Assembly (NCBI GenBank): GCA_023078555.1
Contig: CM041196.1
Span: 3,348,001-3,412,000, forward strand
From: Ulva prolifera
Taxonomy: Eukaryota > Chlorophyta > Ulvophyceae > Ulvales > Ulvaceae
DNA: 64,000 nucleotides
Direction of reading: 5' to 3'
In this document: positions 250 through 51,570 of the stretch, one piece after another
How the letters are laid out: every line of letters starts with the position of its first letter
How positions within the stretch are numbered: position 1 is the stretch's first letter
Notes under the pieces: generated by a model
Seen by the model: only the letters and a program-made list of their open reading frames with translations
Database searches by the model: none
Told to the model about the DNA's origin: nothing
Position numbers and translations under genes: made by a program

Positions 250-3200
250 TCATGCACAGCCGCGGCATCCGGCAGGTGACACGAGCGGGGGCTCCCCATG
301 ATCCCACAGACGCAGCGAAGCACATCGTCCTTGGGGGGGGGGGGGGCAGGTGGGCGCACCAGTGTGCAGCGCCGACCGCACGGCAGCCTTCGACATCGAG
401 TACTGCGCAGCGCAGCGCAGCAGCGCGAGGCACTCATGGCACCGCCGCTCGCCGCCGTCCGCGGCCGGGAACTCCGATAGCTCCAGCCGGCGCTCGCAGA
501 ACGTGCAGCGCGCGCCGCTCGCGGCCTCCCGCGCCGCCGCGATGATGTCCCGCTCCACGTCGCCGCCCCCGGCCGCAGCGACGTAGCCCCCCTCCTGCTT
601 GACGTCCTGCCGCTTGGCCCGCGGCTCTGCAGGGTCGTAGTACGGGGGCGCGTCCGCGGCGGTGAACGGCCGCGCGGACACCGCGGCTGCGGATGGGGCG
701 GGCGCGGGGGCGCCGGGCTCGGCGGCGGAGGGGCCGTAGATGGCGGCGACGATCGCGTCGATGTCGACGGCGAGGCGGTAGCTGCTCGCAGACTGGCCAA
801 CCCGCCAGTCCGCAAAGGCGCTCTGCACCACAGGCGTGCCGATGTCAGGCTGTGACTGGCTGCGGCACAACAGCCGCATGCTCGTACTGCACATGCATAT
901 GTAGTGCCCGGCGGAATCTCCTCGTCCTGTGCGGTGCTCGGAGACGAACAAGCGTGCCAAAAGTTGCTGTGGCCGGTATGATCCAGGGGTGAGACGTGGA
1001 AGGAGCATGCAGCTTCGACGTTGAGGCTGGCCCGGCCACATGCACGCAGCCGCGAGAAGTTGAGACCACACAGGTGTGGACACGCTGCTGCCAGTTGCAC
1101 TGCAGCTGCACTGGGCGTGCCGGCGCACCCTGAGTATGCGCACAGCCTCCTTCACTGGCGGCCCGTGCACGGCGGTGCCGAACGCGGTGCGGCAGTTGGT
1201 GAACTGCTTGCGCGTGGCGTTGGTGACCTTGCGGGAGCTGTGCAGCACGCGCGCCGCGAGCTCGTCGAGGAAGATGACGCCAAGACCCGCCTCGACGAGC
1301 GTGCGCAGCGACGCCATCGTGACGCCGTGCCGCGTGCTGATGCGGCGGAAGTGGTCACAGGGGCCGCAGTACGCGCAGCCGCCTGTGCCGTCCCGGGAAA
1401 ACGCCTCGAGCTTTAGCCTCTGCCGGCATAGCCTGCACGCATGTATCGCATGCATCAGCACACATGGGCTGACTCATGCATGTGATGCATGCATTGGAAA
1501 CGAAGTCGACATTGCGTGTGGTCCCCTCAACGATTGCGCTGAACGGCAGCCGTGTCCGTCGTGGGCACACATGCGGGCGCTGCCACATGACGCTTGAAGC
1601 ACGTGAACAGGGCAGTTTGGCACCAGGAGATCTTGGCAGCGCGCTGTTGATGCCGCAAGCGGGAGGGCCGCACTTGCAAGGCTTGGTGCCGTCTGCGCCC
1701 TCCGGCCCGGAGCTGTCATCGTCCTGCTGCGGTTGCGCGGGCTCGTCCCAGTCTTCGTCCACCGCCGGCCGCCGCCGCTTGACGGCAGCCGCCCCGCGCG
1801 CCTCGGTCAGCAGCTCGCTGGGTCGCGCATCCAGGGGTGCGGTCACCGAGAGGGGGGCGGTGCGGGGTGCTGCCGGGGCGAAGAAGGGGGCCAGCCGCGG
1901 CTTGACGTCTGACACGGGGGGCCGGGACTTGAGCGCAGCGAGAAAGGCCTGCCCGCAGGTCTGGTTGAGGGTAGACGCATCTTGCACAGTGATCACCAGC
2001 GACGGCGTGTCCACCACACCCTGCACCACGTCACAGCACGTGGTCCACCATGGGCTCAAGCGTCACCCCGGCTCAAGCGCCGCCACGCTGCATACATGCA
2101 TGGTCGCACACCGAATGGAGCGGGCGATGCGCGGGAGGTGAGAGGCACACCCGCGCATAACGATACGCCTTCGGGATGTTGTTAGGGTTCGCGTGGCTGA
2201 TCGCAACCGCACCGGCTGCGATCGCGGTGCGTAGCTCGGGGAGGCTGCCCTGCCACACCCGCAGCGCCCGCCTGCAGCCGACGCATGCCTTCACAGCCCC
2301 ACCGCCGCCGGCCACCGCGCCGTTGCCGTCCGGGCCAGGTGCTGGCCCGCCGCCATGCCCGCTCGCAGCATCGCCGTTGGGCACGGCCACAGGCATGTCT
2401 GCAGCGCTCAAAGGAATCTCCTTGAGCTCTAGGATCGGTCGTGGGGCGTCGCAGATGCCACAGGGGGTGACATCCGCGAGGCGCGAGAGGTTCGGGTTGC
2501 GTGGCACGGCAAGCGACATGAAGTCCGCAAGCGACCCGGCGCCGGCGGCGGAGCGCAGGTCCTGGAGCGGCACGTGGAACGCCTTCCGTACCGCGACATC
2601 GCACTTCTGGCAGCACAGGCCGCGCTTCGGCTGGCCTAGCGGCGGCGGGGGGTCTGCCGTCGCGAACATCTCCCCAAACGCCGGGAACTTCGTGATGGGC
2701 TTTGGGAAGTCGCAGATGTAACACTCGCGGGTTGCGGGGAGGCCGGCGTCGCCGGGTAGGGCGTAGTCTGGGTGAGCAGCGACAACAGCCGCTTGCACAT
2801 CCGACTTGCTGATCTGGCCGGCGGCCAACATGTCGCGGAGCTGTGCAACGCGGAGGTGCTTGTGTCGGGAGCGGAGCGCGTTGCAGTCGAGGCAGTAGGT
2901 GCCAAACGCATTGCGCTGGTTGATGCGGAACTCGTTCATGGGGAGCAGCTCCTGGCAGAGGCCACAGGCCTTTGTGGGCTCGTTGGATGCTGGCTCCGGC
3001 ACAGCAGGTGCGGATTCGGCAGGTTGAATGGTAGGTTCTACTGCACCGCTGGTGTGTGGAGACTGTAGTTGCATCGGAGAGTGAGGGCGAGGGGCGCTGC
3101 GTGGGTCAACACGAGGATTGGGCATGTGCTGCTGGCTGGGCAAGTGCACAGCTTGGCCCCGACGCGCCAGCTCGAACTGTGTTCGGGATACATCTTCCAT

Positions 3201-3416
3201 TAGATGCGAAAATGGCAGCGTCGAGCCGTTTGGTGAAGGAAAGGTTGCTGGGCTGCTTGGCAGGGATGGAAGTGCCGGGGAGGGGCTGGGACCTGGAGAT
3301 GCGAGCCACCCACTTGGCAAGGACGAGTCATCATTGACGAGCGCGTCCAGGCCGCCATGCGGTAGAGGGGAGAATGCGTCGCGCATGGTGTGATCGTCAG
3401 ATGGCGATGTCGCCAT
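250..3416 (-). CDS. Unrecognised protein with five tandem CxxC...CxxC modules
   Basis: I do not recognise a family. The model has four exons, about 3416-2151, 2020-1674, 1432-1144 and 822-250, joined in frame to give about 824 aa; the ATG at 3416 opens a Ser/Pro-rich, probably disordered N-terminus. In exon 1, module 1 has Cys151/154/175/178, module 2 Cys232/235/269/272 and module 3 Cys319/322/378/381. Module 4 is assembled across the exon 2-3 junction, where a CKLC pair appears only after splicing, with its second pair CGPC. Module 5 (CTFC...CHEC) is in exon 4. Each module is followed by a short helix-like stretch with the pattern LRxxxxAG. A basic KRRRP run between modules 3 and 4 could be a nuclear signal. 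Paired CxxC suggests zinc binding and perhaps a nucleic-acid or protein-binding role, by inference only. A run of 14 G at 333-346 lies in the last exon, so the exact C-terminus is unsure. The intron 3 junctions are the least certain. Confidence 0.65.
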
Positions 3417-9417: not shown

Positions 9418-9452
<35 letters not shown>

Positions 9453-12524: not shown

Positions 12525-15522
12525 TCAGTACCCTATCCTCGATCCAGGCAGCATCCCAGGCAGCGGCGCCTCCAGCCGTTTCACGTACAGCTGGCTATTT
12601 CGCGCCGGGTCAATCGTGCGGCGCCGCGACGCCGGCAACGTGTGGCTCGCATGCGCCGGCCCGCTCGCGACAAACTCCCGAGCCTGGAACCAGTCCGCGG
12701 TGCGCGTCGTGAGCAGCACGATGCCGTCAAACCCCCGGCAGCGTGCGTCCTGCTCGACCCAGTCCAGCAGCGAGTCCCCACGGCCGGTGCCCCGGAAGTC
12801 TGAGTGCACGCAGAAGGCGGCGACCTCGGCGACGTGCGCAAATTCACCGCTGTCGCTCGCGCCGAGATCGCGCAGCTGCGCGCACGCCAGCACGCGCGCC
12901 TCGCGCTCGATCACCACAAACGTGTCCACCTCGGCAGCGAGTGCCTCCTCGGCGCGCGGCACCACAATCCCGGCCGCCTCCAGCGGCGCCAACAGCCCCT
13001 GCACACCCCGGCAGGTTCTCAATCTCAAAGCTGATCAGGCCAATTGCGTTCGGCGCTAGCAGCAAAGTGTTGGTGCATCAGGCAGGGACCACTCAATGCT
13101 GGCGTCTCTCGTGTTTGATGCTGGCAGCATAAGTGACAGCGGTCGTGCATGCAGCTCGGCCGCTACATTCCTGGTGAGCATTGCATGCACTTCGTAGACC
13201 ACACGCTGCGGTGGCCCTCACTGCCAATCAGGCACAGTGAACATTGCAGCTCTACAGACATTGTCCCTCGACCGATACACGGCCACACATCCGCGCCACG
13301 GTCGTCCTCACTGACTGTGTCAGCTTGGCGCATATTGCACGCATGGCAAATCAAGGCCTGCTGCGTGCGCAGCCTAGGGACTAGAAGGCAGAGCACACCT
13401 TCACTGCAGGCACATCGAGCGGCCCCGCGCGGCGGATGCCCTCATAGAAATCCGCCGAGATCATCGTCCCGACACCGTCGCGGCTATACAACTCCAGCAG
13501 CAGGCCGCCGTCAAGGCGGGCGTCGACGAGGTGGGCGCGCTTGATGCCGCCCCGGCACACCTCATACGCGGCCATGACTGCCGACGGGATCGCCGACGGC
13601 TTCCGGTACAGGTTCAGCCCCCCCAGGCCCGAGCTACCCGACCCCGCCGCACCACCCCCGCCCCAAGTCCGCCCCTCCCCTGCCGCCTCCCCGCGCAGCC
13701 GCACCGTCTGCCCCTGCAGCGCCCCCCGCGTGATCCGCACGGCACGCAGCAGTGAGTCTGAACCCTCCCCGCTGTCCCCGTTTCCCGCAGCGCCGGCGGC
13801 CCCCCACGCCGGCGGACCCTGCTCATCCAGCGATGCATCAGCATCGTCCATGAATGCCGGCCTCCGCCCCGGCGCAAATGTTGGGTCGATCTCCCGGAGC
13901 CGCGCCTCCGCCGATGGCACGCTGAGCCACTCCGGCAACCCCAGCCCCGCGACCTCGTCGAGATGCATGAAGATCACCTTGTCGGCGTTGCACTCCACCG
14001 CCGCACGCACGGCGACGTCGAACGTGTTACAGTTGAGTAGCTCGCCATTCGCACTGTACCCGAGGCTGGACAGGAGTACCACGTTGCCGACATCGAGCTG
14101 CGCGTGGATTGCAGGTGCGTGCACGAAGCGCACGGCGCCAGTGTAGCCGTAGTCGACACCGTTGACGACCCCGAAGCGCCGCGCCGCGATGTAGTTGCCG
14201 CTGACGACATGCATGGCCGCCGCGTAGTGGAACTCGCCTTCGGTGCGGGCGTGCCGGCGGACCATCGGCACAGACGGCCCCTGAATGCGGCAGGCGGATA
14301 TCACGTAGAGATAGGCGCAGCTGAGTTGCCTTGCAGTGCCAGGTTCACATGGATGTAGCGTCTGGTCCCTCGTTGGATGCAGAGCGTATTGTTGACCAGT
14401 CTGTGTGCGCAGTGCCATCAATTGACAGACATGTACTCAACATGGAGACACGTTGGCTACTGGAGCATGGAAGACCAGAGCTGTGAGAAACGCTGGCTGT
14501 GCCAGCTCCATGGAAACGCTGGTTGATCTGCCGATTTGTCATGCCATGTAAAAATATCTGAGCCTGATTGTAGGGATGCAGCGTGGAGATCAGCCTGTGG
14601 CACACCTTGGAGAGCAGGGCCTCGAATAGGATGCGATTGGAGCCTGCGGCCTCCATGACCGCTTCCATGCTCAACTCATCGGTGATACGGTAGCCAGCTT
14701 CAAACCGAGGTTCCTTTCCACGCAGCCGGACAAACCGATTGATCTGCGGGACAGCACCGAGCACCAGGATGATGCGAATGCCCATACCTTGAAGCATTGC
14801 AATGTCATCGACGAAGGAGACCTGTGCACAAGCGGAAGCATGGAGCCAGCAATGCACGCAGTCTTCCTGCTATTCACAAAATACAGCATCTGCACAAGCT
14901 GCAGCTCCACAGCAGTAAGCAACAGGACGAGTCATGATCATTTCCCGCTACTCCTGTGTGGGATGAGCTTTGTAATATTACAGACTCGGTATGCATAGCA
15001 CGAACACAAGCACTGACTGTGGCAAAAACTGTGTTGCAACTCAGGATGAACGAGGGAGACGGAACTCATCCCCCGTCCGCTGCTCAAGAGTCAAAGAACA
15101 TCCCATTCCGCAGCGTACCACAATATTTTTGTCAAGCATTGCTTCTCCTGGTAGCACGACGAGAAAAGTCCCCCCGCGATGGCATGCAATGTACGGTGCA
15201 GCTGAACGGAAGTGCCTGATGAAGCCTGCGGGATCAGTTGCGGATACATTCGCGTTCCTGTAACCTTGTTCAGAGAAGCCCCACGTCTGCAGCAGCAGAT
15301 TTGGGACATTGATTCGCGCAACTGTGTGCATTGGTTGCTGGGCCAATGTGATCCCCATGTCGCGCAAGCGCACATACCGGCACTGCAACAACTTGAACGC
15401 ACCTGAACAATGCGCTGGGAACGAATACTCTCCAGACGAGATCGGCGCGATCCTCTTCCTCTAGCGCATGGCGCTGGTGCACGAACTTGACTGGCCGATC
15501 TACATGTCCCGGTCAGCGCCAT
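12525..15522 (-). CDS. NAGS: N-acetylglutamate synthase, plastid, plant type
   Basis: It transfers an acetyl group from acetyl-CoA to glutamate, the first step of arginine synthesis. Five exons (15522-15378, 15225-15143, 14821-14606, 14280-13399, 12998-12525) join in frame to 599 aa. The first ~48 residues begin MALTGTCRSAS and are rich in Arg, Ser and Ala with few acidic residues, as in chloroplast transit peptides. Next comes an amino-acid-kinase fold: FIRHFRSAAPYI, HRGGTFLVVLPGE, then an ILVLGAVPQI segment. The C-terminal part is a GNAT acetyltransferase domain with FCVHSDFRGTGRGDSLLDWV, the acetyl-CoA loop RGTGRG, and VLLTTRTADWF. The kinase-like domain carries a Gly/Ser/Asp-rich insertion of roughly 100 residues (about 13640-13900) not expected in land-plant enzymes. 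Intron 2 appears to have a GC donor after PGE. The two 3' exons are far GC-richer than the three 5' exons. Confidence 0.92.
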
Positions 15523-32604: not shown

Positions 32605-34438
32605 ATGAGTGCATCTTCAGGTGCAGACGTGACAGCCCGGCGCTTCGTCGCTCCTCTCATAGTGCAAGCGAGGCCGGTATGTTGTCTTGCGTCCTTGTTG
32701 TTGCAGAAGGGACGTATCTATGTCATTGAATTTGCAACATCATTGTCGTCTAGCTTCCATTTTGCGAATGGCGAGCATGGTGCTTCCCTGAGCTGATTCT
32801 GCATTGCATGCAGCGTTTCCGGCCTCCATGTTCATTCAGCGGGTGCCAAGATCAAGGAAACTCTGCAAGAAGTCTTCGGGCTGCTGCAGCTAGACCCGTT
32901 CTAGATGCTGCTGTCACGCCGTTCAGTAGCCATGATGGTAGCGGGTTCCCTGTTGCTTATGGCCACCACAGCATCCCGCCTTCTGTGCGTGGAGGCACCA
33001 AGCTCAAGTTGTTCTCCGGCACAGCTAATCCCGTACGATCCCATTGTCAACGTATAACTTCGCATTTCGCAGTGCTTTCGCTCAGACTCTAGCACGTTTT
33101 GCAGGGCCTCTCCACTGAGGTTGCAAATCATCTTGGGTTGCCATTGGGTCCTATTCGGATCAAGAGATTTGCGGATGGAGAGATTTATGTGCAAGTTCAA
33201 GAATCGATTCGAGGCTGCGATGTGTTCCTGCTGCAACCAACTTGTCCCACCGAAACAGCATCAGTCAACGACATGTTAATGGAGCTGATGGTAATGGTAG
33301 ATGCCTGCAGGTACTTCTTTACCAGTGCGCCAGCTGCTTTCATAGCATCGCTCTGCTGTGAAGTGTCCGTATTCAGGTGTATATTGGTGATGTCTGGCTG
33401 AAAACCAATTCCTCCCTCAGCAGGCGCATGCTATGCAGCATGCATGTAGATTTGTCATACAAGTATCAGCAGGTCCACGATGTAGGCCGTACAATGGCTT
33501 GCGCGCGTTTGCAGGAGAGCGTCTGCACGCAGTGTCACTGCAGTCGTTCCATATTTTGGATATGCACGAGCTGATCGCAAGGTCCATGGACGTGAGAGCA
33601 TTGCTGCGAAACTCACAGCAAATCTGCTCACGGAGGCTGGTATAGATCGGATGCTCTCGATTGACCTGCACAGCGGTCAATGTGTAGGCTACTTCGACAT
33701 CCCAGTGGACCACGTATACGGGGAAGGGGTGCTGCTGGATTATCTGGCATCAAAACGCATCCCCAACGGTATGTGCCTGTGCCTGACGCACTGGATGCCT
33801 ACACATTACTGCAGCTGTATAGCAATGCACAACCACCCACACCTATCACCCAGTTCTGTGTATTTCAGTACCTGCATCTGAGTCATGGCTGCTTTATCTG
33901 CAGGGGATTTAGTGGTGGTTTCTCCAGATGTAGGAGGGGTGGCCCGGGCTCGCGCTTTTGCCAAAAAGCTGTCTGACGCGCCTCTTGCCATTGTGGACAA
34001 ACGGCGTTCGGCTCACAATGTCTCAGAGGTGATGAACATCATTGGTGATGTCCGTGGCAAGGTTGCGGTGCTGGTGGACGACATGATTGACACAGCTGGG
34101 ACCATCACTAATGCAGCCAAAGTACTTCATGAGGAAGGTGCCAAAGCTGTGTATGCGTGCGCGACGCATGCAGTGTTTTCCCCGCCAGCGGCCGAACGCT
34201 TGAGCAGCGGTATGCAGATAAACAGTGCTGTGTGATGTGTCTGCTTCTGGTTGCCCCTACTGCATGCATGTTGAGGCAAAATGGTATGATTTCAGGTGTT
34301 TTCCAAGAAGTGATTGTGACGAACACAATCCCAATTCGTGATGATGACGATTTTCCGCAATTGACAGTTCTGAGCGTTTCCAACCTGCTGGGTGAGACTA
34401 TCTGGAAAATATACAACCAGACACCAATCGGCCACTGA
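32605..34438 (+). CDS. PRS: Ribose-phosphate pyrophosphokinase (PRPP synthetase), probably plastid
   Basis: It transfers pyrophosphate from ATP to ribose-5-phosphate, giving PRPP for purine, pyrimidine, His and Trp synthesis. Six exons (32605-32676, 32814-33032, 33105-33310, 33515-33768, 33904-34209, 34296-34438) join in frame to 399 aa. About 85 N-terminal residues precede the core, rich in Ser, Arg and Ala, suggesting a transit peptide. The core starts [11 protein letters not shown] and continues [20 protein letters not shown] and VFLLQPTCP. The ATP and flexible-loop region is [15 protein letters not shown], followed by SIDLHSGQ. The PRPP-binding loop is [14 protein letters not shown]. The end is [14 protein letters not shown]. 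All catalytic segments are present. The last 13 codons and the stop are duplicated just downstream in the 3' UTR. Convergent with the P4-ATPase gene, 287 nt apart. Confidence 0.95.
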
Positions 34439-34486
34439 GATGTATCTGGAAAATATACAACCAGACACCAATCGGCCACTGAGATG
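34399..34486 (+). repeat. 44-bp tandem duplication across the PRS stop codon
   Basis: Two identical 44-nt units, 34399-34442 and 34443-34486, each begin TATCTGGAAAATATAC. The first contains the last codons and TGA of the PRPP synthetase gene, so the second lies in its 3' UTR. No mismatch between copies was found, which implies a recent event. Confidence 0.92.
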
Positions 34487-34535
34487 TGGACGAGACAAAC
34501 GCGTAGTATGTGACTTCTCCACAAGGCGCCCTCTT

Positions 34536-37700: not shown

Positions 37701-40700
37701 GCGTCAGGAAAGAGTATCAAGTAAGCTTCCGCGCGATGGCAATCATGGCATACTGAAAGCACATCAGCAGCACACAGTTGTGCCATGGCATACATCTCAG
37801 TCGAGACCATCACATGGAAGGCTGTGTTTGACAGGCATGTCATTGAATTGTTGGGATACACTGAGATCTGAGCCTACGCAAGACCACTGAGGAAAGGCTG
37901 CCAGGGCACCTTAGTGAAGATACGAAGTCCTGATAATGACGTTTCGTGCACAAGATGGAAGGCACAAGACCATCGACAATCAAAACAGCACCACGACATC
38001 GCATTGTGGTGGACCAGCACGTGCAAGACAAACTGCGCATAAATGACATTGACAGTGCCAACATGCTTCGAAGACGCACCTTGTCCTCACAGCTCTCATC
38101 ATCTGCGAGAGCCCCTTGCGCCTCAACAAAGCGGCGATCCCAATCCGCGTACACATTCGCCGGGATGATACGTGTGCCAATCACTAGTGTGCGCAAGCCC
38201 TTGGTGGCAAAGTAATGGAGGTTATCCTGCACTCTCTCCAGGAGATCTGGGCTGGTGTCCGGCGACAGCCTCTTTAGCATCATGGCATCTGCGCCTTTGC
38301 ACATCAGCTTGATGGTGCCATCCGGACACCGCAAAATGACGGACATTCGCTGCCGCTCGCTTGAGAATTCCATCACTTCCAAAGTCTCGAAAGCATGTTC
38401 CTCGCCCAGGATGTTAAGCACAGTATGTGTTGCTGACCGAGACACGAACTCAAAGCCCAGGGTCCGTGCGCACTCCACCAGGGCCACTTCGTCAGGCGAT
38501 GGTCCCTGCAACCATAGCCACATGCCCAATGCCGAAAAAGACGCAGTTGTTCTGCATCAGATCCCCAAGTGGCAGGGAGTGTCATGCACAGGTGATACTC
38601 AAGGCATTATCATGCATGCTTTGCTGCCGGATGGTATAGATACACCACAAGAAAAGTCAACTACAAAAATGTGGTCACACTGCAACGGTAGTCGTACTGA
38701 TGGGCAAGATAGCTCACCTGATACTGCGCATCGCCATCCGAAGTGTCGACCAGTAGTGCATGGCAAAGTGCCAGGTTCAACCAGAAGTCAACCAAATGGT
38801 GAGGCAGGAAGTGCCCTGCCTCTGCACCCAGACTTCCCTGTTTCCCAGAAACAGAGTCCTTCATGGAAAGAATGTCTTGAGGGCTGCCAATGCCTGATAT
38901 CGCTTTGGACCACGCTTTGGGGTCATTTTTAATCGTCTGCAATCAATTGATCACGATCTAGACATTTGATGCATTGACAGCAGAAGCGATTGGCGAAATG
39001 TCATGTTCCAGGATCAAAATGACGAGCTGACTTGCGAATGTACGCTCGCTGCGGCATCACAGGTTTCTAGCATTGGCTGGCATTGCGATTGCATCATGAC
39101 TCGGTGCAAGACGCAGCTGTCAGGTGTGGCGCTACCAATTGACCACAGATCAAGTCAAAATCAATGCAGCACGCTGAGGCCAGTCACACCTGCATTGCAC
39201 TGTGCATCTGTTCAGAGAAATACTTGATACCTGAGAACCCTTGCAGATCTGTATGGTCCTCCAGCCTCTTATTCAGGTCACCAAGGGGCTGCCCTTTGAT
39301 CGCAATTAGACGCAGTCGCATCTCATTAGATGTCAAAGTGCCAGTTTTATCACTGAAGATGTAGTCGACCTTTCCCAGATCCTCATTGAGGTTGGAGTTT
39401 CGGCAGCGTGCCCCCTCCCCGTTCTCATCCCGCATTTCCCTGTCAAAGTTGATGAACACAAAACCTTGCCAGAACTTGACAATTTCCAGTGTCACAAATA
39501 AGGAAATAGGTACAAGATAGGAATATAGGATCCAGAAGGTGATGAACACTAGCAGTGTGTAGAGCAAGCCATTCTCCTTGTTACCTTGAGTGTATGACTC
39601 AAAGTCCAGGTAGTACCGCCGCTTGCCCTGCGAGAACAATGCAGCATAATCATGCATGTGGTCACTGCGAAATCTGCATATAATTATTGTATACAACAAG
39701 ACTTGATCTTATCGCAGATATCAGGTGAGTAGCATACCTCAGTTTCTCGCCAAATGTAGTTCAACACGGCACAGATGACGCATAGGCACACTTGCGCCAT
39801 GATGAGGATTGCCACCTGAATGCCATTCCAACAATCAGGTAACCCACATAAGGAGACTCGCAGGGACGTTCACAAACTGCAACCAGAGTAAGTCCCAACA
39901 ATGCCGCATCGTCGCATGCAGTTAAGGCCCATAAATTGCCAAAGACTTGCCTGCATATTCAGGAAATGATCAAAGCTCCCGATCTTCAGTGGTGCCGCTG
40001 CGCTGTTCATCTGGATGCGTGTGTCCTTCCCTGTGTAAACTACGAGTCCCAAGACGCTGTGGCTGTTTTTCAGCATGCACCCACGCAGCAGCATCTGGTT
40101 CATGGTGATAGGGAGAATCTTGCCGGGATCGCCAGGTGCTTGTTTGATTGAAGCACGTCCGCGGAAATTATGCAGATTACTGTTTGGCATCTCACATTCT
40201 ACTTCCAGCATCAAGTCCAGCAACGCCTCTGGATCTGGGCTATCAGGATAGTCTTCGGCATCAAGAACTTGCCTGCAGCATAAGACAACTACTAAACAAG
40301 CAATCGATCCCATGGTGCAATGCCTGCCGAAAAATGAGTTGAGTTGCAGGTCTACTGACATAGCTTTGACAGAGCAATGTGCACAACAAAGCAAGCCAAA
40401 AATGGTACAAACAGCATTCTTATCAAATGGTGTGGGCTGCAGTCCAGGACCGACTGGAATACAGCTTGCCACACAGCTAAGATGCTTCAGGATACAACAA
40501 TCCAAAACAAGCAGCACACAAGATCCAGAACAGACCTCTTGACTTTCAGATTTGTTTCACCGTCCAAGTTGGTTGTCTTGACGTAGCAGATGCGTTCTGG
40601 AAGTTCGCAGTGCAGACAGATCAGATCTGCTGGGAACAGGTCATTGTCAAACACCTTCACCACATCCCCGACCTTGACCTCACTCCATCGACATTGGTGC

Positions 40701-41651
40701 TCTTTCCACGGTCCATCTGCGTCACGCTTCATCACAGTCGTCATGGAATTGTTTGTCTTGTGATCCTCCCCCTGCCGCTTTTTATCCTCGACAACAGCTT
40801 TGATGGCTGCTGCCAACAGAACAAAGCTGAGAGCCATTGTTGCTCCGTAGCCAGCAAATGGTGAAACTTCTTCCCACCAGGACAATGCCGCCTGGAACAG
40901 TGGCATGAGCTCAACACATGCGGCAGTCATGCATCGAATGAAATTGGTCAAAATTTTCGCATGCCTTTTTTGACAGTCATACCTGAAAGAGGAAATACAC
41001 GTATGCCACGCGCGAGAACATCTCAAAAAGGAACTTGGGTATGAAGGTGATGAAGTAGCGATCATATTTGGCAGTCGACACTGCATTGCCCTCCAACTTA
41101 GCCAAGTGAGGATGATCATCTTGGCCGGTCCACGGAATATAGCGGGAGTTTTGATTGGACGTATCGATCCCCTGTTCATTTGAGCTCTGCAGCAAAGCGA
41201 TCATTGAGAACAGTGCAGAAACGGGGCAGTACATCCTTGCATGCAAATGTGAGACTGGAGTCCGATTGATTTTCAAATGGAATGTCACTGCATCTGACCA
41301 ACACTGTGAACACTTGATTTCACGTCCTGGTAGGAATGACCAAGTGCCAGTGCAATTCAACGTAGAGACGTGACATTGCTCACTGAAGCAAGCATAATGA
41401 CATGCTGCCCTGGTGAATGTGTTGCCAGACTCAAGGTGTCCGGAGAAGGAAGTGGGAAGGCATACCGCAGCAGCATTGGCCTCTCGCTTTGACACGGCAT
41501 AAGCCTTCTGGGCTCTATGGTCTGCAATAGACGACATACGACGGACATGCTTGCTATTTAAAGAACTTGTTTCTGATAAACTCTGAGCATTGTCCACACT
41601 GAGCGGCACCGTCGCCGTCTCTCGCCCTGAGTGATCCTGTGGCGCGTGCAT
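34726..41651 (-). CDS. ALA: P4-type ATPase, phospholipid flippase
   Basis: It uses ATP to move phospholipids to the cytosolic leaflet of secretory or plasma membranes. About 13 exons run from an ATG at 41651 (MHAPQDHSGRE) to a stop at 34726. In order: the N-terminal family stretch KYDRYFITFIPKFLFEMF, VWSEVKVGDVVKV-type actuator text, TTNLDGETNLK (the P4 form of TGE), PISLFVTLEIVK in helix 4 (Ile-Ser in place of cation-pump ligands), and the phosphorylation site FSDKTGTLTSNEM near 39.35 kb. Then come GPSPDEVALVECA, MCKGADAMM, WMITGDKQETAINIA, VVCRASPSQKA and GDGANDVAMIQAADVGIGI, followed by the C-terminal membrane helices with YKNSCFAGVLFYFQIFNGFSG. The last exon is a polar tail. P4-ATPases usually need a Cdc50 partner; none is in this window. 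Individual splice sites were not all resolved, and the start could lie in an earlier exon. Confidence 0.93.
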
Positions 41652-44600
41652 CGTCAAGCAGGTGGTCCACACCCAGCCCTTCGACTTGTAGCAGGACCTT
41701 TCTTCTGTGTGCCCGAGGTCTCAACGGGACAGGCGGAGAGTCGACATGTCGTCATCCTTGCCTACTTCCGGCATCAGCATGTACTGTCGGAAACACGGAT
41801 TCAAAAGCTTCGACAATATCCTGAGCAAAGCTCTGAAACTATATAGAGTTCACCCATAGGTTGTCACGAGTCACGTATGGCATCACATCATGACGAGGAG
41901 AATGCGTTAGATCCACGCGCTTCATGTCAGTTTGTGCCATAGCGTCTGGCAGCCGAGACTTTTCGGGAGGTGATATGTTCAGGTCACTCTGCCGTTAGCT
42001 GTATTGTCAACAAGTGGTGAGGTGATGCACAGTCAACGCGATCACGCCGATCCAGCTGCATGCATAGTCACCGAAACACGTTCAAGCCTTGATATGGCGA
42101 ATCGCTTACACCAGCATGCTAGCAGTTCATCCAAAGGTATAATGCTTGCTTAATGTTTCTGGCTGTAACAAAATACTCGTAGCTTGCAGTCTTTGGACCG
42201 TACACATCGTTCCACAAATTGGCCGCACTTCTCTGCAGGATCGGCATGGCAGATTCAGGCGGAGTCAATGTGTAATTTCTCTTGGCCAACGTGCGGGCGA
42301 TCGGCTAGACCGCGGCTTGACACCGCGACAGCTTCACGCGCAGTGCATTCCGGGAATGAGCCGGTCTAGCGTTGGCTACGTATTCTCTCCTCAGGGTGTG
42401 CTCGCACCGTTGCAGACATTCTTCACCGTGGTAGCGTGGACATTTGTTCTGCAAAATCTTAGTCAAGCATCTGAGGCCACATCGACTGCCTGCGAGAGAC
42501 ATGCGCTTGATCTAAGCTGCCCAAGGGTTTCAGCAGTTATAGCTGGACTCGCGATTGGCCCTGTAGTTCTCTGCGGCACCTCGTGCATGTTCTCTGCTGC
42601 TCAAAGTGGCTGACCGGTCCTGAGGACACACTACCAGAGTCAGCCAAGGGCAGCAGTCGGACCAGGCCATGCTATCAGAGCCTACGATTGTGCAGTGATC
42701 ACGTGCAGGACAGGAGTCGCGGCCGTTAAGTTATGAGCCCTGAGAAACCTTTTGATGACCATGTTCGCTTGGCGCCGATCACTGTACGTGTGTTAAGGAG
42801 AGGATGCCATCAACGTAGGATGCTAAAAAATGCCATCATATTCGAAGTCAAGCTAACAGGCCCAATGGGCACAGAACGACCTGACACCAGAAAATGCACA
42901 CAACATCCTGACATGAGGACACGCCATCTATGCCGTAGCATCTGACAGCTGTCCCCAGGTGACAGAATCACAGGGCGCCTTTCTGCTTCACATATAACAC
43001 AAATACACAAAATCACTAACGCCAGCAGCTCATGGCCTCATGGCTGCTCCGAGCACCAATGGGCGAGACAAACAAACTCAAGCGAACACCCACGCGCTCG
43101 GCCTGGGGCACACCAGTATGCAGATGCAGCTATGGCAAAATCCAGCCAACGTCCGACAGCACAAACCAAACAAAGGGCCATGGTCTGGGGATGGGCTGAT
43201 GGTTAGCTGCTGCAAAAGACAAGGGTCGTTGCAGGCCGCTAGGCGGAATTCTTGACAGAGCATGTACCCCTCAGAGCTGCAAAGCATGAGAGGCGTAACG
43301 AGGGATCTGGATGCAGCATGAGTCAGCGCCTCAATGGTAAGGGCATTGGATGACCTGTGCATTGGCCCTGCATCTATCTATCCATCACTCAGGAAACACA
43401 TCAGCTCGAACGCAATGCTTGAACTATTCTCACACCGATCGCATGGTCACCCTTGGGCTTCCTACTTGAGCCTGAATCGCGGCAGCTTGCACAACATTGA
43501 TGGCATCATCTCTGATCTTCAGCGCACACACCTGATATCCATGGACTTGGGTTGCGCACGTTTTGAGCGTCTGGGGTGCAAGAATGTTGTTGCATGGCGG
43601 TTGTGTCGAGCGCATCCAGTCATGATTGTTCTGCTTCAGGCCTTGGCTGTACCTTGGGTATGCTGTGTTCCAGAACTTGTGCTGCACACGGTTTGTGCGG
43701 TGCTACCTACCTCTTTTATTGTCCTTGCATTACACAGACCTGGGCAATATCGTCCCGTGGCTGACAGGACAAGACGGTGAGTTCCGTGCTGTAACGGCAG
43801 CAACCTTCTCTCATGCAAGACCATGCCTGTACATTCAGTGGTTTCATCCCTAGCCGATGCATGCACAGATTCATGCACGGCGAATTCTGTCCGCGTCCGT
43901 GTCGGCCATGGCGCGCTTAACACAAAGAACCTTCCGGCGATGTGGCTACATGCTGCCCAGCGCTCTGTCGCACGGCTGCAGCATACCTCGCATATTTTCT
44001 GGCCAAAATTTCACATTAGCAGCAACGGTCCAACTTTGCGGTGTATTGCGCATTCCGGCAGAAGCACGCTGAATTTGTGGCCGCAATAGTTAAAAGCTGC
44101 CGTGCAGCAGGAGCCTTCGAAAATTTGTGCCGGAAGTGGCAGGCAGTTCGTCTCAAGCGTTTGTCGTCATTGTATCGTGTTCTTGAGTACATCTATCGCG
44201 TTGCATAGATTCTTCTTGAAGGGGTCTGTATGGCTGCCGTAAAATCCATACACAAGCCTGGTGGACGGCAAACATGCGCAAGGCCAGCGAAAGGGTAGGC
44301 TGAAACATCTCCGACACATCGTTTTTTTCTGCTCACGGCCGCTGCATGGCTGCATATGATCGCTACTGCAAACTTCCACGTTCATGGGGCGCACAAGCTC
44401 CGACTGTCGCGCTGCCGTCGCATCTATGCCCGTGTATTCGTTGCCTACAGCGGCTCCCGGCCTGATACGGAAGTCATCATCTTTCTTTCCGGTCCATTTG
44501 CGGCTTCCGCGCGTCCGCTGGTTGGAACTGACGTTGACATTCGCCACCTGCCACGGAGTACGGAGTGTCGGAGGGTCTTGTCTTGCACAGCATTTGCTTG

Positions 44601-48447: not shown

Positions 48448-48482
<35 letters not shown>

Positions 48483-51506: not shown

Positions 51507-51570
<64 letters not shown>

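Follow-up and report, generated by a model that had tools for sequence, protein, structure and literature searches.

Phage HNH and endonuclease VII proteins can carry a four-cysteine finger ahead of their catalytic core, and this finger is absent from some endonuclease VII proteins. In the phage N-terminal finger (PHROGs 2255, 1035, 2633 and 2340; gp43 of phage Teutsch), C-x2-C is followed by F about 8 residues on and by a second C-x2-C that starts a basic helix, an arrangement shared with the gene described here. Such fingers also occur as tandem pairs: P0004 of Virus Rctr197k (APU88886.1, L013, record 74840-75571) has two tandem fingers of this type, both covered by a match to PHROG 5558 (130 positions, annotated as Lar-like restriction alleviation protein) at aa 3-128, after which a match to the endonuclease VII family phrog_1035 extends as far as the protein does. 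The enzyme Hpy99I (PDB 3fc3) has a CxxC...F...CxxC stretch at residues 76-111, mostly within its N-terminal part (1-105), which is reported to serve DNA binding and dimerization (PMC3765158). For TagI, an HNH enzyme, it is reported that changing either CxxC Cys to Ala drastically lowers activity (PMC6212794).

We analysed a stretch of DNA of 64,000 nucleotides, referred to as the window, in which one minus-strand gene encodes five units of this kind, each a finger followed by a short helix (M1 to M5, Table 1).

Gene model and the five units

When the four exons are joined on the minus strand and the last one is read on to the stop at 250, they form a single open frame of 829 aa, and all three introns are of the GT...AG type, with the frame kept across them. 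The first-pass annotation had described a protein of 824 aa with five modules; the five modules stand, and the length to the stop at 250 is corrected to 829 aa. Codon scores were between +0.21 and +0.33 for exons 2 to 4 and for the second half of exon 1, and between -0.34 and -0.12 for the introns. The first half of exon 1 (2801-3416), whose start is a predicted one, scored only -0.13, and the last 110 bases (359-250) had an intron-like score of -0.30. This tail opens with a GTGCGC donor at 359, and a TGCAG acceptor has its last base at position 3; in all probability the gene extends past position 1 and out of the window, which makes five units a lower bound. It had also been proposed that the first Cys pair of M4 is made only by splicing. 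However, the unspliced frame also has a Cys pair there, CRLC, because the acceptor TGCAG creates a Cys codon, and this pair was rejected as proof of splicing.

Table 1. Features of the five-unit gene and of the rest of the window
Feature	Positions	Strand	Remarks
Exon 1	2151..3416	-	M1 to M3 and an N-terminal Ser/Pro-rich stretch
M1	2817..2966	-	Finger of phage HNH type and LRDMLAAG (aa 193); CxxC at aa 151/175
M2	2535..2723	-	RGLCCQKC and LRSAAGAG (aa 287); CxxC at aa 232/269; no DHxH
M3	2211..2462	-	Related to M2; long Gly/Pro spacer and LRTAIAAG (aa 395); CxxC at aa 319/378
Exon 2	1674..2020	-	Linker with KRRR; first Cys of M4
KRRR (aa 503)	1769..1780	-	Between M3 and M4; possible nuclear-import cluster
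M4	1285..1678	-	Finger and HGVTMASLRTLVEAG (helix LRTLVEAG, aa 580); split by intron 1433-1673; CxxC at aa 537/557 or 560, as CAYCGPC allows two registers
Exon 3	1129..1432	-	Remainder of M4
Exon 4	360..822 (822-250 if read to the stop)	-	M5; probable donor at 359
M5	358..507	-	Finger and VRSALHTG (aa 787); CxxC at aa 745/767
ORF like acetylglutamate synthase/kinase	13384-14436	-	AA_kinase, E 6.8e-6; PDB 2r8v, E 1.7e-23
Two ORFs, P-type ATPase pieces	37843-38556, 40980-41720	-	Cation_ATPase, PhoLip_ATPase_N
Pure run of 35 G	9418-9452		
Pure run of 33 G	48449-48481		
Pure run of 62 C	51509-51570		
44-base unit	34399-34487		Two copies, 100% matching

All five CxxC...CxxC modules reported in the first-pass annotation, each with a short helix, were recovered, and each is followed by [L/V]Rxxxx(A)G. 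The last Gly codon of M5 is read across the probable donor, M3 has L at the position where the other units carry F, and in every unit the stretch that runs from its second CxxC through the end of the helix carries a net charge of +2 to +3. A pattern describing the unit, which was composed after the units had been seen, occurs five times in the real protein; among 5000 shuffles of the whole protein it was found once in 6 and not at all in 4994, and among 5000 shuffles in which the Cys residues were kept fixed it was found twice in 16, once in 552 and not at all in 4432.

The units are also related to each other. When each unit was omitted in turn and an HMM was built from the others, the omitted unit ranked third against the 1588 ORFs of the window, after the gene's own two unit-bearing ORFs, with E-values of 3e-7 for M4, 9.8e-7 for M1, 1.3e-4 for M5, 0.0014 for M2 and 0.0045 for M3; the best single stretch was weak for M2 (0.092) and M3 (0.78). 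Searched against the window, a profile of all five units had no other strong match, the next best being at E 0.018. In pairwise comparisons, M1-M4 (z 9.7), M4-M5 (z 7.3) and M2-M3 (z 5.0) were clear, none of 500 shuffles scoring as high in each case, which suggests from sequence that the units fall into two groups, M1/M4/M5 and M2/M3. Similarity was moderate for M1-M2 and M1-M3 (4/500 shuffles each), weak for M1-M5 (13/500) and M2-M5 (21/500), weaker still for M3-M4 (39/500) and M3-M5 (40/500), and absent for M2-M4 (177/500).

These results bear on whether the five-fold array is one protein at all, since a wrong gene model, in which two genes or a decayed copy had been joined, would fit the location of M1 to M3 in one uninterrupted ORF and of M4 and M5 in a second, as well as the weak coding character of the first half of exon 1 and of the gene end. 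However, one frame runs across three GT-AG introns, the remaining exon sequence is coding-like and the introns are not, and the units are kin across both ORFs, as in the case of M1 and M4. We therefore regard a wrong gene model as very unlikely.

The window has a GC content of 57%. In Pfam, the N-terminus of a phospholipid-translocating ATPase, an M16 peptidase and cation-ATPase pieces were above the cut-off, and RING-like matches were below it. The two ORFs with P-type ATPase pieces presumably belong to one gene. With its GT-AG introns, ATPase, M16 peptidase and acetylglutamate synthase-like ORF, the window looks eukaryotic, and its source is presumably a green alga. Rfam and tRNA scans returned nothing.

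Comparison of the fingers and helices with phage endonuclease VII-type proteins

The first-pass annotation had noted a likeness to the CxxC...F...CxxC knuckle seen near HNH nucleases, and this was supported by PHROGs, tblastn, profile-profile comparison with permutations and, less strictly, Foldseek. In PHROGs, whose families were built independently of the window, M1 matched the HNH endonuclease family phrog_2255 (E 1.9e-4) and the endonuclease families phrog_2340, 2633 and 1035 (E 0.0026 to 0.02), and M4 matched endonuclease VII phrog_1035 (E 0.004). The entire exon 1 repeated the M1 match (E 5.3e-5); the raw read of exon 3 had no PHROGs match, and that of exon 4 had one unrelated-looking match (E 0.04) and none to the nuclease families. 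At an E limit of 10, tblastn with M1 yielded 27 phage records, three of them below 0.01, namely the HNH endonuclease of Streptomyces phage Teutsch (8e-4), in which the matched region is the N-terminal finger, and two records of NootNoot (3e-3).

For profile comparisons, 12 phage fingers were assembled from 9 of the 27 tblastn matches, 1 of 7 matches of another search and 2 IMG/VR loci. Against the HMM of these fingers, M1 scored 46.8 bits, a value reached by none of 2000 permutations with Cys fixed; this score is partly circular, because the phage fingers were gathered via their similarity to M1. M4 (12.9 bits, 0/2000, the highest permutation reaching 12.8) and M5 (12.7 bits, 2/2000) were both borderline, and M2 (285/2000) and M3 (106/2000) were not above chance. 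When an alignment of M2, M4 and M5 was compared by hhalign with 11 of the phage fingers (alignment A3, from which L002 was omitted as a near-duplicate), the probability was 94 and the score 37.4, whereas no score above 24.6 was seen when the columns were permuted 100 times and the Cys columns kept in place. Thus, the finger that precedes the core in endonuclease VII-type proteins is clear in M1 and borderline in M4 and M5.

The structure of M1 was predicted by AlphaFold2 from a 7-row alignment including two phage fingers (pLDDT 80). In this model the first CxxC is flanked by two short strands and the second opens a helix, an order that we would read as a treble clef; the LR helix and one further helix follow. 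Modelling exon 1 as a single sequence gave a poor result (pLDDT 39). In a Foldseek search of BFVD with M1, 17 of the 50 matches listed (563 in total) were named HNH, endonuclease VII or a related nuclease, and these were from phages and giant viruses, with probabilities of 0.85-1.00 and E of 0.037 or more. No Foldseek match in BFVD or PDB reached E 0.001.

The Stc1 domain is a tandem finger pair in fungi and is not known to have the LR helix; the Stc1 finger of fission yeast connects RNAi with a histone methyltransferase. It could therefore be supposed that the units of our gene make protein-protein contacts in chromatin, as the Stc1 finger does. Stc1 (PF12898, 2luy) shares with the units a four-Cys finger of similar spacing, M1 matched the Pfam Stc1 model below threshold (E 0.018; profile positions 53-83 of 84), and 2luy was listed second in the Foldseek search of PDB (E 0.99), at a probability of 0.63 that none of the 50 rows shown exceeded. 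However, the M1 match, at 16.0 bits, fell short of the cut-off of 24.8, and 7 of 11 phage fingers also matched Stc1 weakly and no less well than M1 (best E 0.0069), so that the likeness is common to this type of finger rather than specific. Membership in the Stc1 family was thus ruled out, and a role in chromatin contacts appears quite unlikely. A search for the Stc1 family in one phage record found none, with silent controls.

A known domain family comprising all five units, an outcome that the first-pass annotation had reckoned with, was not found in Pfam or NCBIfam: no family of either library takes any of the units at its cut-off, the Pfam matches being sub-threshold and NCBIfam having nothing relevant. 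Matches of the unit profile to CMD1 and cytochrome c in PDB were rejected, as the alignments shown fail to pair both CxxC; an S14 hit was recorded as well, and the three matches of M1 among PDB sequences were all unrelated. No close relative was confirmed in IMG/VR for exon 1, M1 or exon 4, none of the 104 pattern stretches from prokaryotes (one genome per species) was confirmed, and megablast of 5 kb against phages gave no match. Among the matches listed in a literature search of titles and abstract openings, none describes such an array.

The helix that follows the finger provides a second point of comparison. The helix at this position in endonuclease VII has the consensus YGITFEQYWQMYEEQ in 12 of 13 sequences, L027 having been left out for its shorter helix, and the Pfam Endonuclease_7 model starts at this YGIT helix (aa 41 of L004 and aa 53 of L019, both above the Pfam cut-off). 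When the units are laid on it, the LR or VR of M1, M2, M4 and M5 share columns, and that of M3 is off by one. The score of M4 (RHGVTMASLRTLVEAG) against the YGIT helix was reached in 20 of 20000 shuffles and the summed score of the units in 219 of 20000. M1 (3334 of 20000), M2 (10840), M3 (10880) and M5 (3391) were not significant singly, and therefore their shared register means little alone. Plausibly, the LR helix is the same element as the YGIT helix, the sequence support being in M4. The statement that the finger-plus-helix repeat belongs to no known family agrees with Pfam and NCBIfam at their cut-offs, and it is weakened in that phage endonuclease VII-type proteins have a helix at this place, with significance in M4 only.

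M2 and the core of endonuclease VII

A likeness of M2 to the RGLxC of the endonuclease VII core was spotted by eye before testing. The core set consisted of 13 sequences, namely L004, 2 IMG/VR loci and 10 of the 40 listed among 1582 phage records matching L004. Against the HMM of these cores, M2 scored 12.3 bits, a value reached in none of 2000 permutations with Cys fixed, although the match is modest, with an E-value of 0.0059 alone and 0.052 within its ORF (next ORF, 0.14); M1, M3, M4 and M5 were not above chance. All 13 phage cores contain RG-x-x-C-x-x-C, and its single occurrence in the window protein falls in M2. In an hhalign comparison of aa 145-305, containing M1 and M2, with five endonuclease VII proteins that have a finger, a single ordered alignment, 108 columns long, scored 43.8, compared with at most 24.4 in 100 permutations with Cys fixed. 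HMMER with whole endonuclease VII aligned separate weak stretches only (E 0.11, 0.87, 0.11 and 0.37; whole protein, 1.9e-9), and no Pfam match was listed for M2 at E up to 10, a search whose filters drop most matches above 0.1.

We infer with moderate confidence that M2 may represent a decayed zinc site of the endonuclease VII core, in which case M1 and M2 together would mirror a whole endonuclease VII minus its active site. DHxH, present in 13/13 phage cores, does not occur in the readable 829 aa, and M2 reads ADPPP at its position. A loose H-N-H spacing at aa 71 and 602 was dismissed as chance, with no adjoining DH.

Alternatively, the protein could be a working HNH nuclease with many fingers, the exons for its catalytic core being located past the low end of the window. 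The probable extension of the gene past position 1 is compatible with this, as is the position of the finger in the phage relatives, N-terminal to the core, with P0004 having its phrog_1035 match after two fingers. Nevertheless, five units and about 800 aa pass without a DHxH among them, and M2, the most core-like unit, has ADPPP in the place of this motif. An active nuclease thus seems to us rather improbable.

Proposed function and comparison with known systems

Since the fingers are of a phage nuclease type and the visible part of the protein lacks a cutting site, the protein probably binds DNA. The explanation that we favour, and consider reasonably probable, is a protein with many fingers that probably resides in the nucleus and binds DNA, or possibly RNA, and that repeats the finger-plus-helix found before the catalytic core of phage and giant-virus endonuclease VII/HNH proteins. 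This agrees with the nucleic-acid-binding array suggested in the first-pass annotation. Computed directly were the five units, their mutual kinship, the strong likeness of M1 and the weaker likeness of M4 and M5 to the phage finger, and the lack of DHxH in 829 aa. According to this explanation, each unit would form a treble clef in which its four Cys hold one zinc, nucleic acid would be contacted by the basic helix that follows the second CxxC, and flexible linkers would join the units so that together they might read a long or repeated target, the zinc-held fingers gripping nucleic acid without cutting it. It is also conceivable, albeit unlikely, that a nuclease of endonuclease VII type was acquired by a eukaryotic, probably algal, lineage, that its active site disappeared there, and that its half with finger and helix was amplified to form an array which reads sequence as TAL and C2H2 arrays do; this would be a novel type of modular DNA-binding protein.

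If the favoured explanation is true, the DNA-holding half of a nuclease has been freed from its blade and repeated, which would account for an orphan, probably algal, gene and provide a compact zinc module as a reader of DNA or RNA. Furthermore, no Pfam model was above its cut-off among the best matches listed for 11 phage fingers, and this type of finger may therefore hide eukaryotic relatives. The gene family may already be annotated in algae, for instance as "hypothetical protein".

The units match Hpy99I, which is an enzyme, only weakly (E 0.048 for the whole sequence and 0.47 for the stretch), and Hpy99I was absent when the phage fingers were searched against PDB at E up to 10. The comparison with endonuclease VII (Pfam PF02945) is closer, in that M1 and M2 follow its order of finger, helix and core and M2 retains RGLxCxxC, whereas DHxH is found in endonuclease VII and not in the window protein. 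PHROG 5558 was not among the PHROGs matches listed for the window units. As far as Pfam, NCBIfam and PHROGs show, tandem pairs of fingers were known from phages, and five fingers with helices and no core seen are new. The gene differs from the phage HNH and endonuclease VII finger proteins in its introns, in the lack of a visible core and in the number of its units: P0004 and PHROG 5558 have tandem fingers as the window gene does, but two of them instead of five.
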